Below, piece by piece: positions 9,300 through 15,998 of a DNA stretch of 64,000 nt; positions within the stretch are counted from its first letter, which is position 1; every line of letters begins with the position of its first letter. The notes below the pieces were generated by a model. The model was not told the origin of the DNA and did no database searches. It saw nothing but the letters and a program-made list of their open reading frames with translations. Location of the stretch: the NCBI RefSeq assembly GCF_001544015.1, contig NZ_AP014924.1, positions 2,728,001 through 2,792,000 on the forward strand, read 5' to 3'. The translations under genes were made by a program, and so were the position numbers. Origin of the DNA: Limnochorda pilosa (lineage in GTDB: Bacteria > Bacillota > Limnochordia > Limnochordales > Limnochordaceae).

Positions 9300-10136
9300 T
9301 CACAGTTCGGGGGAGAGGGGTCCAGATCCTTCATCCGGTGGCCGGGTCACCGTCGCGAGGAGGTCCGGGTCCGGGGGTGGGCAGGCGGCGGGGTCGTCCG
9401 CCGCCTGAAGCCAGAGGAGGAACTCCCGGTTCCCGGCGGGGCCGAGGAGAGGTGAAGGGACCAGCCCGCGTGCGGCGAAGCCTTCGCCCCGGGCCGCCTC
9501 CCACACCTTCTTGAGCACGTCGACGTGCACCTCGGGCGAGCGCACCACGCCACCCTTCCCCACCCGGGTGCGCCCTGCCTCGAACTGGGGCTTCACCAGC
9601 ACCACCAGGTCGGCGGCGGGCGCGAGGAGGGATCGGAGGCGCCCGAGGAAGAGGGTCACCGAGATGAAGGAGACGTCCACCGTCGCGAGCTCGGCCGCCT
9701 CGGGCACCATCGAAGGCTCCAGACGCCGGATGTTGGTCCGCTCGAGCACCACCACCCGGGGGTCCTTCCGCAGCTTCCAGGCCAGCTGCCCGTAGCCCAC
9801 GTCCACCGCGTACACCCGCCGCGCCCCCCGCTGCAGGAGGCAGTCGGTGAAGCCGCCGGTGGAGGCGCCCACGTCCAGGCAGATCCGCCCTTCCACGGCG
9901 AGCCCGAAGCGGTCCAGCGCGTGCTCGAGCTTCTCGCCGCCCCGGCTTACGAAGCGGGGGGGCCGGCCCGCCCAAACCACCTGGGCCCCCCGCGGCACCC
10001 GCGCGCCCGGCACGCTCACGGTGCGCCCGTCCACCTGGACCTCACCCGCCATGATCGCCCGCCGCGCCTGCTCCCGGGAGGGAAAGAGGCCTTCCTCCAC
10101 CAGCCGGCGGTCCAGCCGCCCAGGTCCCTCGCTCAT
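9300..10136 (-). CDS. tlyA: TlyA-type rRNA ribose 2'-O-methyltransferase
   Basis: A 278-residue enzyme of the TlyA family, which methylates ribose of cytidines in 16S and/or 23S rRNA. An S4 RNA-binding domain is at the N-terminus (RLDRRLVEEGLFPSREQARR). The FtsJ-like methyltransferase follows, with the SAM-binding CLDVGASTGGFTDCL near residue 85. The K-D-K-E tetrad is plausible in GGEKL, VDVSFISV, VLVKPQFE and NREFLLW. The ATG overlaps the dxs stop (ATGA), so it is coupled to dxs. The dxs-tlyA-argR-recN order is conserved in Firmicutes. Confidence 0.95.
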   Translation of the reverse strand: MSEGPGRLDRRLVEEGLFPSREQARRAIMAGEVQVDGRTVSVPGARVPRGAQVVWAGRPPRFVSRGGEKLEHALDRFGLAVEGRICLDVGASTGGFTDCLLQRGARRVYAVDVGYGQLAWKLRKDPRVVVLERTNIRRLEPSMVPEAAELATVDVSFISVTLFLGRLRSLLAPAADLVVLVKPQFEAGRTRVGKGGVVRSPEVHVDVLKKVWEAARGEGFAARGLVPSPLLGPAGNREFLLWLQAADDPAACPPPDPDLLATVTRPPDEGSGPLSPEL

Positions 10137-12085
10137 GACGGAGCGTTCTCGGCCCCCTTCCGCCAGGCAGCGGGCGAGACCACCTTCACCAGCCGCCGGG
10201 CGGCGTCCGCGATGCCCTCGGCCGACAGCCCCTGCTGGGCCCTGAGGCTCTCCTGGCCGCCGTGCTCCACGAACCGGTCCTCCACCCCCAGGCGCACCAC
10301 CCGGGCGGCCACCTGCCGGTCCGAAAGAAGCTCCAGCACGGCGCTGCCGAAGCCGCCCATCCGGACCCCCTCTTCCACGGTCACCAGCCGCCCGGTGCGA
10401 CGGGCCAGGTCCAAGATCCGCCCTTCGTCCAGGGGCTTGACGAACCGGGCGTTGAGGACCGCCGCCTGGATGCCCTCGGCCTCCAGGGCTCCGGCGGCCT
10501 CCAGGGCCGGGCCCACCATCGCCCCCAGGGCGATGATGGCCACGTCGGTCCCCGGGCGGAGGAGCTCCGAACGGCCCACCTCCAGGATCCGGGGCTCGCG
10601 CTCGAAGTCGAAGGCTTGTCCGTGGGAGAGGGGACAGGCCCCCTTGGGGTAGCGGACGGCTGCCGGGCCCTCCAGGCTCAGGGCCGTGGCCAGCATGTCC
10701 TGCAGCTCGGCGCCGTCCTTGGGCGCCATCAGCACCAGGTTGGGGATGCACCGCATGTAGGCCAGGTCGAAGACACCGTGGTGCGTGGGGCCGTCGTCGC
10801 CCACGATGCCCGCCCGGTCCAGGGCGAAGGTGACGGGGAGGTTCTGCACGCAGACGTCGTGGATGAGCTGGTCGTAGCCCCGCTGGAGGAAGGTGGAGTA
10901 GAGAGCCACCACAGGCCGCAGCCCTGCCGTGCTCATGCCTGCCGCCATGGTGACGGCGTTCTGCTCGGCGATGCCCACGTCGAAGCAGCGGTCGGGGAAG
11001 ACCTTCTGGAAGGCCGAGAGGCCGGTGCCCGCGGGCATGGCCGCGGTGATGGCGACCACCCGCGGGTCCCGGTGGGCCAGGCCGATGAGGCTGGTGGCGA
11101 AGACCTTGGAGTAGGAGGGCGGCTTGGGCCGCTCCACCGCCGCAGCCGGCTCCACCTTCTCCGCCTTCCAGTAAGGTGTGAAGGGGCCCAGGCCGTGGAA
11201 GGTGGCGGGATCCTCCTCGGCGGGCCGGTAGCCCCGCCCCTTCTGGGTGACCACGTGGATGAGCACCGGGCCCCCATGGTCCAAGCCGTCCCGCAGGATG
11301 TGCTGCAGGGTGGGGATGTCGTGCCCGTCCAGGGGCCCGTAGTAGCTGAAGCCCAGCTCCTCGAAGAGGGTGCCGGGCAGGAGCAGGTGCTTCAGCCCTT
11401 CCTTCATGCGGCCGCCCACCCGCAGCATGGGCTCACCCAAACCGGGAATCTGGGAGAGGAGGCGCTCCACGTCCTCCTTGGCGCGCCGGGCACCGGGCGC
11501 CAGGCGGAGTTGGGTGAGGTAGCGGGCGATGGCCCCCACGTTGGGTGCGATGGACATCTCGTTGTCGTTCAGGATCACGACCAGGTCGGTTCCCAGGGTT
11601 CCGGCGTTGTTGAGCCCCTCGTAGGCCATGCCGCCGGTGAGGGCGCCGTCGCCCACCACCGCCACCACCGCGAACCGCTCGCCCAGGGCATCCCGAGCCA
11701 GGGCAATCCCCAGCGCGGCGGAGACGGCCGTGCTGGCGTGACCGGCTCCGAAGGGGTCGTGGGGGCTCTCGCTCCGGCGGGTGAAGCCGCTCAGGCCACC
11801 CTCCTGCCGGAGGGTGCGGAACTGCTCCCGCCGCCCCGTGAGCAGCTTGTGGACGTAGGCCTGATGGCCCACGTCCCAGACGATCCGATCCCGCGGGCTG
11901 GAGAGGACGGTGTGGAGCGCCAGGGTCAGCTCCACCACCCCCAGGTTGGGGCCCAGGTGGCCCCCCGTCTGGGCGACGGTCTCCACCAACTCCTCCCGGA
12001 TCTCCGACGCCAGCTCCTTGAGCTGTGCCAGGCTCAAACCCTTCAGGTCCGCCGGACTTCCAATGGTCTCCAGAATGCGGCCCAC
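10133..12085 (-). CDS. dxs: 1-deoxy-D-xylulose-5-phosphate synthase
   Basis: A thiamin-diphosphate enzyme that joins pyruvate and glyceraldehyde 3-phosphate in the first step of the MEP isoprenoid pathway. The 650-residue protein has TGGHLGPNLGVVELTLALH near residue 45 and the ThDP-binding GDGALTGGMAYEGLNNAG near 150. The transketolase pyrimidine-binding part has DVGIAEQNAVTMAAG and DRAGIVGDDGPTHHG. GTG at 12085 is chosen because GAGGGG lies about 6 bases upstream and the typical N-terminus (LETIGSPADLKGL) follows. It sits directly after oapA, separated by 10 bases, and functions in the same pathway as ispA upstream. Confidence 0.98.
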   Translation of the reverse strand: MGRILETIGSPADLKGLSLAQLKELASEIREELVETVAQTGGHLGPNLGVVELTLALHTVLSSPRDRIVWDVGHQAYVHKLLTGRREQFRTLRQEGGLSGFTRRSESPHDPFGAGHASTAVSAALGIALARDALGERFAVVAVVGDGALTGGMAYEGLNNAGTLGTDLVVILNDNEMSIAPNVGAIARYLTQLRLAPGARRAKEDVERLLSQIPGLGEPMLRVGGRMKEGLKHLLLPGTLFEELGFSYYGPLDGHDIPTLQHILRDGLDHGGPVLIHVVTQKGRGYRPAEEDPATFHGLGPFTPYWKAEKVEPAAAVERPKPPSYSKVFATSLIGLAHRDPRVVAITAAMPAGTGLSAFQKVFPDRCFDVGIAEQNAVTMAAGMSTAGLRPVVALYSTFLQRGYDQLIHDVCVQNLPVTFALDRAGIVGDDGPTHHGVFDLAYMRCIPNLVLMAPKDGAELQDMLATALSLEGPAAVRYPKGACPLSHGQAFDFEREPRILEVGRSELLRPGTDVAIIALGAMVGPALEAAGALEAEGIQAAVLNARFVKPLDEGRILDLARRTGRLVTVEEGVRMGGFGSAVLELLSDRQVAARVVRLGVEDRFVEHGGQESLRAQQGLSAEGIADAARRLVKVVSPAAWRKGAENAPS

Positions 12086-12095
12086 CGAGTTCCCC

Positions 12096-12776
12096 TCACT
12101 TTCGTTGCCTACGGCTTTGACGCGAGGCCCTCCCGCTCCTACCCTTCCTCCGCCCGTCAGACTCCACACTCGCCCGGCGACCCGTCACCGCTCGCTTCAG
12201 AAGCGTCCAGAGGAGCACCGCCCGGCCTGCCTGCAGGAGGATCCGGTCCCAGTGCTGGAGCGCAAACTCCTTCTCCGCCGCCTTCCCCCCGATGGTGAGA
12301 GCGGCCGCCACCGCCACCAGGCCCGGCGTGAGCGGGGCCGCCGCCCACTCCGGGTGGACGCGCACCAGCGCGAAGACGATGGTGGTGGCGATGGCCCCTG
12401 AGAGGGTGCCGGCCACGTCCCCCACCACGTCCTGCGAGAAGGAGGAGACGTGGTGCGCATTCCTCACCAGGAGGATGGCCTCTGCGGCCCCGGGAACCCG
12501 GTCTACGGCCATCGCGTGGAAGGGACCCTCCCGCGCCGAAGCGGCGGCCACCCCGAGCATGTCGAAGAGGACCCCCAGAGCGATCACTGCGAGAAGAAGG
12601 ATCGCGGCCAGCGCGATGTTCACCCGCTGGAGCAACTCGTTGCTAAGATAGCTCAGGATCAGAGAGAGGACGAACGCACCCGCTCCGACACTCACGAAGC
12701 GGCGTAAGGCAGGAGGCAAGAGATCACCGACCCGCGGAAGGATATCGACGAAAAGGCTCGACGGGTGGCAGCACAC
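12096..12776 (-). CDS. oapA: OapA-like OLE-RNA-associated membrane protein (DUF21/CorB-like)
   Basis: A 226-residue membrane protein of the small DUF21/CorB-like family found beside OLE RNA. There are about four hydrophobic segments (around residues 32-45, 53-78, 120-138 and 150-165). The family core GVLFDMLGVAAASAREGPFHAMA and the later NAHHVSSFSQDVVGDVAG are very clear. OapA binds OLE RNA and places it at the membrane in Halalkalibacterium halodurans, where the complex affects tolerance to cold, short-chain alcohols and Mg2+. The last ~25 residues are Arg/Ser/Lys-rich, which may contact RNA. The GTG at 12776 has no good Shine-Dalgarno, so the start is uncertain and may be further downstream. 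Confidence 0.87.
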   Translation of the reverse strand: MCCHPSSLFVDILPRVGDLLPPALRRFVSVGAGAFVLSLILSYLSNELLQRVNIALAAILLLAVIALGVLFDMLGVAAASAREGPFHAMAVDRVPGAAEAILLVRNAHHVSSFSQDVVGDVAGTLSGAIATTIVFALVRVHPEWAAAPLTPGLVAVAAALTIGGKAAEKEFALQHWDRILLQAGRAVLLWTLLKRAVTGRRASVESDGRRKGRSGRASRQSRRQRK

Positions 12777-12784
12777 CGAGTAAA

Positions 12785-13394
12785 CATTGTGGCTTAGGTC
12801 CAGCAGGTTTTCCCAACGGCCCTCCGCAGCGTCGCCGCCGTGGCGGTTTCCCCTTTGCGGCCGCTCTGCCGTGTCACCACGAGCAGGGCTGGATTACCAC
12901 TCAGACCACACCGCAATCCTCGGTGTACCTCCTGGCGGAACAGCCTAGAGGTTTTCCCCTACGGTCACGCTGCATCCTAGCCTCTCTTGCGGGGGAAGTT
13001 TCAAGCGGCACCGGTTCGGCTCCCCTTGGCCTTCGGGGACCCGCCTGAACCCGCTCTCCCGCTTCACCCGCTCAAGGCAGGCTACGCTGCACCCAGCGTT
13101 CAGTACCACACGCACGTCCCACCGGGATGCAGGTTCGTCACCCAAGCCGTAGTTCCCCGACCGCACAAGCGGTCAGCTCCCCACAGTCTTGGGTCTCCGC
13201 GGAGCCAGGGTCATCGCCCACATGCCATTGCAGGCTGCCCCGCCTCCTTAACCCCCAGCCGCAACCCCGGACTGGGCGTCCAAGGCCACCACCAGGGACT
13301 TCATCGCTGTGCCCGCGACGGATTTTTAGGCCCGTCTTCAGATGCAGCGCGCCCGACTAGGATACTGCACCACCCGCCGATGCACGCTTCTTCA
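12785..13394 (-). ncRNA. OLE-type large structured RNA (ornate, large, extremophilic)
   Basis: This 610-nt interval lies between ispA and oapA, just before dxs, which is the established position of OLE RNA. No frame gives a credible protein. A sigma-A-like promoter puts the 5' end near 13394, and an end near 12785 gives the ~610 nt typical of OLE. Hairpins on the RNA strand include: 13317-13336 (GACGG/CCGTC), 13159-13174 (GACCGC/GCGGTC), 13084-13099 (ACGCT/AGCGT), 13021-13039 (TCCCC/GGGGA), 12946-12961 (TAGGGG, AAAA loop, CCTCTA) and 12908-12926 (ACACCG/CGGTGT). The motif GGGAAAACCT occurs twice (12949-12958 and 12805-12814). I cannot fit the full consensus by eye; both ends are estimates. 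Confidence 0.85.
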
Positions 13395-13400
13395 GAAAGT

Positions 13401-13429
13401 AGTCTATCAGGATCACCGGACCCGGTCAA
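13401..13429 (-). promoter_or_regulatory. Sigma-A-type promoter for the OLE RNA
   Basis: Minus-strand TTGACC (13424-13429), a 17-base spacer, then TAGACT (13401-13406). The -35 lies in the last codons of ispA. Transcription would start near 13394, giving OLE RNA its own start in addition to ispA read-through. Confidence 0.6.
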
Positions 13430-14309
13430 GGACCCTCTCCGCCAGGCCCCGCAGGACCTCGGCGTCGAGCCCCTCCAGCAACGGCAGCGCCCGCTCCACC
13501 TGTTCCCGGGCCATGTGGCGGGCGGCCTCCACGCCGTAGAGGCGCGGGTAGGTGAGCTTGCGGCGGCCGGCGTCTTTCTGGGCCGCCTTGCCCAGAACCG
13601 TGGGGTCGCCCTCCACGTCCAGGAGGTCGTCGACGATCTGGAACGCGTGCCCCAGCTCCTGGCCGAATCGGCCCAGGGCTTCGACCCGGTCGGGGGCGGC
13701 CTCCCCCACCCGGGCCCCGAGCCGCAGGGCTGCGCCGAAGAGGGCGCCGGTCTTGCCCGCGTGGATGGTCTGAAGCAGTGCGGGTGTCGGCTCCAGGTGC
13801 TCCGCGTCCAGATCGGCGGCCTGGCCGCCCACCAGCCCGCCGCTGCCCGCGGCCTGAGCCAGGTCCCGCACGCAGGCCAGGGCCACCCCCTCAGGGACAC
13901 CCGCCAGCTCGGGCAGCCGCCCCAAGAGCTCGAAGGCCAGGGTGAGGAGGGCATCGCCCACCAGGATGGCCGTCGCCTCGCCGAAAGCCCTGTGGACCGT
14001 GGGCCGCCCCCGTCGAAGGTCGTCGTCGTCCATGGCCGGCAGGTCGTCGTGCACCAGGGAGTAGGCGTGGAGGACCTCCACGGCCCCGGCGGGGACCAGG
14101 GCCGTCGCGGGATCGCCCCCCACGGCCTGCGCGGCCGCGAGCACCCCCAGCGCGCGGAGCCGTTTTCCGCCTTCGAGCACGGCGTACCGCATGGCCTCCT
14201 GGACCTGCCCCACCGGCGCCTCGCCGGCAGGCAGGAGCCGCTCCAGCTCCGCCTCCACCCGGGGCCGCCACGCGGCCTCGAAGTGGTCAAAGGTCTCCGG
14301 CCTCTTCAC
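13413..14309 (-). CDS. ispA: Farnesyl/geranylgeranyl diphosphate synthase
   Basis: An all-trans prenyl diphosphate synthase that extends DMAPP with IPP. The 298-residue protein has the first aspartate-rich motif DDLPAMDDDDLRRG near residue 92, preceded by GGKRLRALGVLAAAQAVGG. The second motif is FQIVDDLLDVEGD near 223. Length fits a C15/C20 synthase; the chain length of the product cannot be fixed by eye. The GTG at 14309 overlaps the xseB stop (GTGA). It is followed directly by the OLE RNA. Confidence 0.96.
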   Translation of the reverse strand: MKRPETFDHFEAAWRPRVEAELERLLPAGEAPVGQVQEAMRYAVLEGGKRLRALGVLAAAQAVGGDPATALVPAGAVEVLHAYSLVHDDLPAMDDDDLRRGRPTVHRAFGEATAILVGDALLTLAFELLGRLPELAGVPEGVALACVRDLAQAAGSGGLVGGQAADLDAEHLEPTPALLQTIHAGKTGALFGAALRLGARVGEAAPDRVEALGRFGQELGHAFQIVDDLLDVEGDPTVLGKAAQKDAGRRKLTYPRLYGVEAARHMAREQVERALPLLEGLDAEVLRGLAERVLDRVR

Positions 14310-14638
14310 AGGCGGCCTCCTTCCCCTTCCGCCCCCGCGAGCTGGAAGGGCTCCACCACCGGCCCCCCCTCCCGCTCCAGGAGCTGCTCCAGCCGGGCCT
14401 GGGCCTGGTCCAGCCGGCTCTGGCAGATCCGGCTCATGCGGATCCCCTCCTCCAGGAGCCGGAGGGACTCCTCCAGGGAGGGCTCGCCGCCCTCGAGGCG
14501 CTCCACCACCGCCTCCAAGCGCCCGTAGGCCTCCTCGAAGGCGATCTCCTCTCCGGGGTCGCTCTCCGGAACGGCGCCCGCCGCCTCCCCTGCGGGCAGG
14601 CGCGTCGTCTTCCGCCTACGGGACTCCTTCTCAGCCAC
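14306..14638 (-). CDS. xseB: Exodeoxyribonuclease VII small subunit
   Basis: The small subunit of exonuclease VII. The 110-residue protein has the family core FEEAYGRLEAVVERLEGGE, then SLEESLRLLEEGIRMSRIC. An N-terminal stretch of ~25 extra residues is basic then acidic. GTG at 14638 is chosen because GGAGG lies 8 bases upstream. It overlaps the xseA stop by 8 bases, so the two subunits are translationally coupled. Confidence 0.95.
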   Translation of the reverse strand: MAEKESRRRKTTRLPAGEAAGAVPESDPGEEIAFEEAYGRLEAVVERLEGGEPSLEESLRLLEEGIRMSRICQSRLDQAQARLEQLLEREGGPVVEPFQLAGAEGEGGRL

Positions 14639-15998
14639 GAGCTGCACCTCCGCTCCGACGCGCACTCCCCGAGCGGTCCTCTTCGGGTGCCCGGAATCGC
14701 GCCCGTTCTTCCCGCCCGCGCCCGGGCGGCTCCGCACCCTGGGGCAGCGGGTGCTGGACCTCCACCCGGCAGCCCAGCGAACCGTCGCTCACCCGCACGA
14801 GCAGGCGGCTCCCCACAGGGGCCTCCCCCACCTGGTGCACCACCCGTCCCTCGGGCGTCGTGGCCACGGCGTAGCCCCGGGCCAAGGTGCCCAGGGGCGA
14901 GAGCGTCTCCAGGCGGGCAGCCAGGTGGGCCAAGGCTGAGCGCCGATCGGTCACCCCCCGGCCGAACGCGGCCTCGAGCCGCGCGGTCAGCTCGTCCAGC
15001 CGCTGGCGGGACTCCTGGAGCGGCCGTAGAGGCTGGCTCAGCACCCGCGAGCGGGCCAGCAGCCGCAGCCGCTCCCGCCGGGCCCGCAGGCCCTGGGAGA
15101 CGGCCTGGGTGAGCCTCCGCTCCAGGCGCGCCGCCTGGGAGGCCAGCTCCCGGGCATCGGGAGCGACCAGCTCCGCGGCCGCGGAGGGGGTGGGGGCGCG
15201 TACGTCCGCCGCGAAGTCCGCCAAGGTCACGTCGGTCTCGTGACCCACGGCAGAGACGATGGGCACCGGGCTGGCAGCAATGGCCCGAACCACCCGCTCG
15301 TCGTTGAAGGCCCAAAGGTCTTCCAGGGAGCCGCCCCCCCGGCCGATGATGATCACGTCCACGTCTCCATGGGCCGCCAGGAGCCCCAGGGCGCGGACCA
15401 AGCTGTCGGGGGCCTCCGCGCCCTGCACCAGGGCGGGGGAGAGCAGGATGCTCGCCGCGGGGAAGCGCCGGCGCAGCACCGTGACCACGTCGCGCAGGGC
15501 GGCTCCCGCGGGGGAGGTGACCACCCCCACCCGCCGGGGCAGGCGCGGCAACCGTCGTTTCCGAGTCGGGTCGAAGAGCCCTTCCCGCTCCAGCTTCTCC
15601 TTCAGCCGCTGGAACTCCGCGTAGAGCTGCCCCTCGCCCGCGGGAACCAGCTCGTCCACGTAGAGCTGATACTGGCCGTTCCGTTCGTAGACGCCGATGG
15701 AGCCCAGGGCCAGGGCATCCTGCCCTTCCCGCGGCCGGAAGCGAAGGTGCTGGGCCTGGCCGCGGAACATCACACAGCGGAGCGAGGCCTGGACGTCCTT
15801 GAGGGTGAAGTAGAGGTGCCCCGAGGTGTGGAGGGTCACGTTGGAGAGCTCGCCCCGCACCGCTACCCGGCGCAGCCCAGGCTCACCCTCCAGGAGCGCC
15901 TTCACCACCCGGGTGAGCTGGCTCACGGTGTAGAAGCCTTGCTGCTCGGGGCCCGCCGACGGCCACGGCCGCGCGGCGAACCCGCCCATGGCCCGCAC
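14631..15998 (-). CDS. xseA: Exodeoxyribonuclease VII large subunit
   Basis: The catalytic subunit of exonuclease VII, which degrades single-stranded DNA into oligonucleotides. The 455-residue protein has an N-terminal OB fold (YTVSQLTRVVKALLEGEP, GELSNVTLHTSGHLYFTLKD). The central catalytic domain has RVGVVTSPAGAALRDVV, IIIGRGGGSLEDLWAFNDE, and VGHETDVTLADFAADVRAPTPS. A long Arg/Leu-rich coiled-coil stalk follows. GTG at 15998 or ATG at 15989 could start translation; the former has GGAGG upstream. Confidence 0.97.
   Translation of the reverse strand: MRAMGGFAARPWPSAGPEQQGFYTVSQLTRVVKALLEGEPGLRRVAVRGELSNVTLHTSGHLYFTLKDVQASLRCVMFRGQAQHLRFRPREGQDALALGSIGVYERNGQYQLYVDELVPAGEGQLYAEFQRLKEKLEREGLFDPTRKRRLPRLPRRVGVVTSPAGAALRDVVTVLRRRFPAASILLSPALVQGAEAPDSLVRALGLLAAHGDVDVIIIGRGGGSLEDLWAFNDERVVRAIAASPVPIVSAVGHETDVTLADFAADVRAPTPSAAAELVAPDARELASQAARLERRLTQAVSQGLRARRERLRLLARSRVLSQPLRPLQESRQRLDELTARLEAAFGRGVTDRRSALAHLAARLETLSPLGTLARGYAVATTPEGRVVHQVGEAPVGSRLLVRVSDGSLGCRVEVQHPLPQGAEPPGRGREERARFRAPEEDRSGSARRSGGAARG

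Follow-up and report, generated by a model that had tools for sequence, protein, structure and literature searches.

The window, as we term the whole stretch of DNA analysed here, comprised 64,000 nucleotides of the Limnochorda pilosa genome (contig NZ_AP014924.1, positions 2,728,001 to 2,792,000). Within it we found a minus-strand gene cluster in which the order xseA-xseB-ispA-OLE-oapA-dxs was the classical one, the neighbouring genes being assigned by Pfam. The features of the locus were as follows.

10133 to 12169, minus strand: dxs, 1-deoxy-D-xylulose-5-phosphate synthase gene, start unsettled (PF13292, E 6e-118)
12096 to 12776, minus strand: oapA, 226 aa from GTG 12776 (38-65% identity to OLE-adjacent proteins; weak CNNM/DUF21 match)
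12749 to 13389, minus strand: OLE RNA (ole), from the full-length cmscan match, standard pairs and covariation in relatives
13028 to 13031, minus strand: GGCC palindrome in the loop of the long P9 hairpin, located through the cmscan alignment and kept in most aligned relatives
13401 to 13429, minus strand: candidate OLE promoter overlapping the end of ispA, with -35 TTGACC (13429-13424), 17-nt spacer, TG, and -10 TAGACT (13406-13401)
13413 to 14309, minus strand: ispA-like farnesyl diphosphate synthase gene (PF00348, E 5e-55; NF045485 above cut-off)
14306 to 14737, minus strand: xseB, exonuclease VII small subunit (PF02609)
14631 to 15998, minus strand: xseA, exonuclease VII large subunit (PF02601 and PF13742)

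The original prediction had placed an OLE-type RNA in a gap between ispA and oapA-dxs. Both the gap and the gene order were present: ispA ended at 13413, the longest oapA frame opened at 12776, and Pfam matches identified a polyprenyl synthetase upstream and a DXP synthase downstream. The order ispA-OLE-oapA-dxs recurred in most relatives. It had also been stated that the gap contained no coding frame. Taken literally this was incorrect, since a plus-strand ORF (12987-14528) crossed the interval; nothing supported this ORF as a gene, and it was rejected as a shadow frame arising from the GC-rich sequence, the OLE match being on the opposite strand.

OLE is a large membrane-associated RNA known from thousands of Bacillota genomes and, to our knowledge, one of the largest structured RNAs in bacteria that still lack an assigned biochemical role. 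The check that had been proposed, a search of the minus strand with the OLE covariance model (Rfam RF01071), gave a cmscan match at 12749-13389 that spanned positions 1-616 of the 616 in the model, with 426.8 bits (E 6e-123) against a gathering score of 50 bits, and the claim of an OLE-type RNA in the gap was thereby borne out. This was the only match in the 3.8-Mb single-contig genome, making OLE a single-copy RNA there, and the model had no matches in 14 control genomes. We found no plasmid DNA similar to the OLE region. The G+C content of the RNA was 65%, versus ~75% in the upstream neighbours and ~70% downstream. Nearby Rfam matches to MIR2907, mir-1234, MEG8_3, and PhotoRC-I were far below their own gathering scores and were rejected. 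On the sequence evidence, 12749-13389 was thus confirmed as a genuine and complete OLE RNA, an ordinary family member in the standard place. The OLE family was already known, and what is new here is one further, well-supported member; our literature search found no paper naming Limnochorda together with OLE RNA.

An unrelated cis-regulatory leader of oapA and dxs, such as a riboswitch or attenuator in place of a free RNA, would also suit this location, since the interval immediately precedes the two genes and no terminator separates it from them. We gave this explanation a negligible probability. The OLE model matched end to end and no other Rfam family matched over the interval, which argued strongly against it, and there was no terminator-like switch ahead of oapA.

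The limits of the OLE RNA differed from those originally proposed, namely a length of ~610 nt and an edge at 12785, near the apparent start of the oapA frame. These did not hold: the 3' strand of the outermost model helix occupied 12780-12770, where it paired with 12929-12919, and the model ended at 12749. The predicted length was about 640 nt, with a transcript of ~635-645 nt if it starts near 13394. The GTG at 12776, which opens the longest oapA frame, fell inside the 3' strand of this closing helix (12770-12780). If that codon is used as the oapA start, OLE folding and oapA initiation could interfere with each other.

The gap had been described as rich in hairpins, and folding agreed: the minimum free energy for 12761-13394 was -324.8 kcal/mol (z = -5.9 relative to dinucleotide shuffles). 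The family match was stronger evidence for OLE than this stability. In the cmscan alignment, whose counts lean towards the model because it was fitted to it, 140 of the 159 model pairs were standard (82 identical to the consensus, 37 with both partners changed, and 21 with only one), and 226 of the 249 highly conserved consensus positions were identical, with the conserved loops intact. Covariation was checked in 30 same-class sequences using a MAFFT alignment made without structure, and the controls were obtained by sliding the 3' partners by 1-3 columns. Standard-paired cells made up 88% of this alignment versus 39-45% in the slid controls, and 95 of 158 pairs were double-changed versus 36-53. 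The OLE RNA of a same-genus relative was 88% identical.

The remaining 19 of the 159 model pairs were non-standard, and 11 of them sat in two hairpins, 13193-13141 (5 of 17 pairs) and 13047-13011 (6 of 15). Such a concentration would be in line with a decayed or non-functional OLE relic that is a mere spacer in the operon. Still, the probability of decay was judged to be minimal given the intact loops (226/249 positions), the 37 pairs changed on both sides, the 88% identity within the genus, the covariation across the class, and the persistence of all the partner genes. The poor keeping of the two hairpins perhaps reflected local misalignment. The GGCC at 13028-13031 corresponded to the palindromic L9.3 kissing loop, a proposed symmetric dimer contact (PMC12286853), and the conserved nucleotides on either side of the putative kink turn at the P5 base, the OapC site in the family, were kept in the cmscan alignment. 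A 17-nt insertion relative to the consensus was located in a hairpin loop at about 13117-13101.

The promoter string TTGACC-17-TAGACT given in the original prediction was present at 13429-13401. It scored 9/12 with TG before the -10 and was the sole sigma-70-like site in 12000-14000, where 0.2 were expected. In a survey of 62 OLE loci, covering the region 5-65 nt upstream of the conserved 5' motif, 71% of the loci had a promoter-like site with a score of at least 9; the corresponding shares were 10% for dinucleotide shuffles and 3.6% for control stretches taken further upstream, mostly inside ispA. Most nearer relatives had TATAAT or a near match at the corresponding place. No terminator-like site was found between OLE and oapA, in line with read-through or processing. 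One may ask if this true OLE RNA lacks its own promoter and comes solely from read-through of the operon, being cut out afterwards. The dense same-strand gene cluster would fit such an origin, as would the score of 9/12 with a -10 weaker than that of most relatives; moreover, the H. halodurans ole gene belongs to a large operon, and processing of its transcript is presumed (PMC9723947). We nevertheless considered exclusive read-through unlikely, since chance would give only 0.2 such sites per 2 kb, promoter-like sites occurred in the same place in same-genus and same-order relatives, and in H. halodurans a promoter of its own serves ole within that operon (PMC9723947).

The gene following OLE had been called a clear OapA-like DUF21 protein, of which the first half stood and the second was overstated. 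Its product shared 38% identity with the protein next to OLE in Alkalihalobacterium elongatum and up to 65% with that of a close relative, and an alignment of six sequences, including OLE-adjacent proteins of distant Bacillota, had 29 invariant columns. Judged from these alignments, the oapA product is plainly homologous to the OLE-linked OapA proteins. Its match to CNNM/DUF21 (PF01595) reached 14.1 bits (E 0.039), below the Pfam gathering cut-off of 28.4, which fits the published weak homology of OapA proteins to this family (PMC11332333). We found neither CBS nor CorC domains in it, and comparison of its sequence with the PDB gave nothing meaningful. The true oapA start is possibly downstream of GTG 12776 because a same-genus relative (locus L032) had a methionine near residue 11 of our OapA reading; the window had no canonical start at that exact codon.

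Family searches in the genome also identified candidates for the other OLE partners. Between map and infA, a frame of 109 aa matched the solved OapB structure 7k9b (E 2e-8), and a frame between rpoC and rpsL matched YbxF (E 7e-15) as the OapC/YbxF candidate; here map, rpoC, and rpsL were assigned by reading translations, without a family search. As bS21 was encoded too, candidate genes for all four partners (OapA, OapB, OapC, and bS21) were present, and the presence of the last three is common, not universal, in the OLE family. At locus L068 (1501-1824), an automatic OapC/YbxF match, taken between stops, was reported with an in-frame TAG, but a 107-aa frame spanned the conserved domain intact. 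No CNNM protein above the cut-off was found in the L. pilosa genome, as expected from the reported anticorrelation between MpfA and OLE.

OLE has been reported from most Bacillota classes, in 2,822 genome assemblies (PMC11332333). In our samples, it was present in 148 of 199 genomes of the phylum and in 35 of 41 near relatives. All six of these relatives without OLE also lacked OapA, and among the 41 genomes only one (G212) had OLE without an OapA match. In this 99%-complete draft of the same class, a full-length OLE (locus L045, 1501-2174, 475 bits) was located directly between ispA and dxs, with no oapA at the locus, no OapA match anywhere, and one modest CNNM match elsewhere. It is a possible case of OLE without OapA, a combination almost never seen according to the literature. 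In another relative (L056 of G232) the order was rearranged to ispA-oapA-OLE-dxs, with oapA (926-1384) upstream of OLE (from 1501) and not downstream, and in two more (L049 of G218 and L042 of G215) OLE and OapA were on different contigs. In G218, dxs came next after OLE without an intervening oapA, which appears to have moved. Many same-order genomes carried OLE plus a CNNM (MpfA-like) protein, and therefore the MpfA-OLE anticorrelation is not strict among these relatives; five of the six OLE-less relatives had one to three CNNM proteins.

These relatives, together with the two poorly kept hairpins (13193-13141 and 13047-13011) and the 17-nt loop insertion, led us to consider an altered architecture of the OLE particle in the GC-rich lineage, with OLE working in some relatives without an adjacent OapA or without any. 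We regarded this as very unlikely; if true, part of OLE function would be independent of OapA.

The reading that we hold as nearly certain is that the locus encodes a full-length OLE RNA of ~640 nt with its own promoter in the ispA end, one that would form a dimeric membrane particle with its partners for stress adaptation. The RNA would be transcribed on the minus strand from this promoter, and probably also through read-through from the isoprenoid operon, and its 3' end would then be trimmed. By homology with its counterparts in Halalkalibacterium halodurans and Clostridium acetobutylicum, it would dimerise and bind the membrane protein OapA encoded by the next gene, OapB, OapC (at the kink turn), and bS21, and the resulting membrane-bound particle would help the cell to cope with stress from cold, alcohol, magnesium, and energy limitation or imbalance of this kind. 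The observed part of this model consists of sequence, structure, location, and candidate partner genes, while its expression, processing, binding and complex formation, and function are drawn from the homologues in these two species (PMC9723947, PMC11332333, PMC12286853).

A verified GC-rich OLE from a complete genome with all partner candidates provides structural comparisons with a divergent sequence and may also supply a stable RNA for structural studies. The original expectation that a very GC-rich relative would be valuable was borne out only in part because GC-rich hosts were common among relatives (fetched loci up to 73%), and the family spans the 2,822 assemblies cited above. This copy adds to the record; by itself it does not resolve the biochemical function of OLE or make that question testable. 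Judging by the title of Watanabe et al. 2016 (cited in PMC11448272), the Limnochorda lineage was described as a Gram-negative spore-former. The occurrence of OLE there would run mildly counter to the link with Gram-positive bacteria that PMC11332333 discusses.

Three known systems can be compared with this locus. The membrane domain of the magnesium exporters MpfA/CorC (CNNM, PF01595) is distantly related to OapA; in contrast to them, the OapA described here had no CBS or CorC domains and was below the CNNM cut-off. In the TANB77 and RF39 clades, variant OLE RNAs (PMC11332333) have the same conserved core nucleotides as our RNA. However, their P7-P9 stems are shortened or missing and they are largely without OapB and OapC, whereas the L. 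pilosa RNA was full length with candidates for both proteins. With the OLE RNAs (RF01071) of, for example, H. halodurans and C. acetobutylicum, it shared the full-length model match, the covarying structure, the ispA-OLE-oapA-dxs location, an own promoter (a candidate in our case), and encoded OapA, OapB, OapC, and bS21. It differed from them in a host with ~70% G+C, the 17-nt loop insertion, and a 3' closing helix that overlaps the longest oapA frame, and these differences leave the pattern of the family unbroken.
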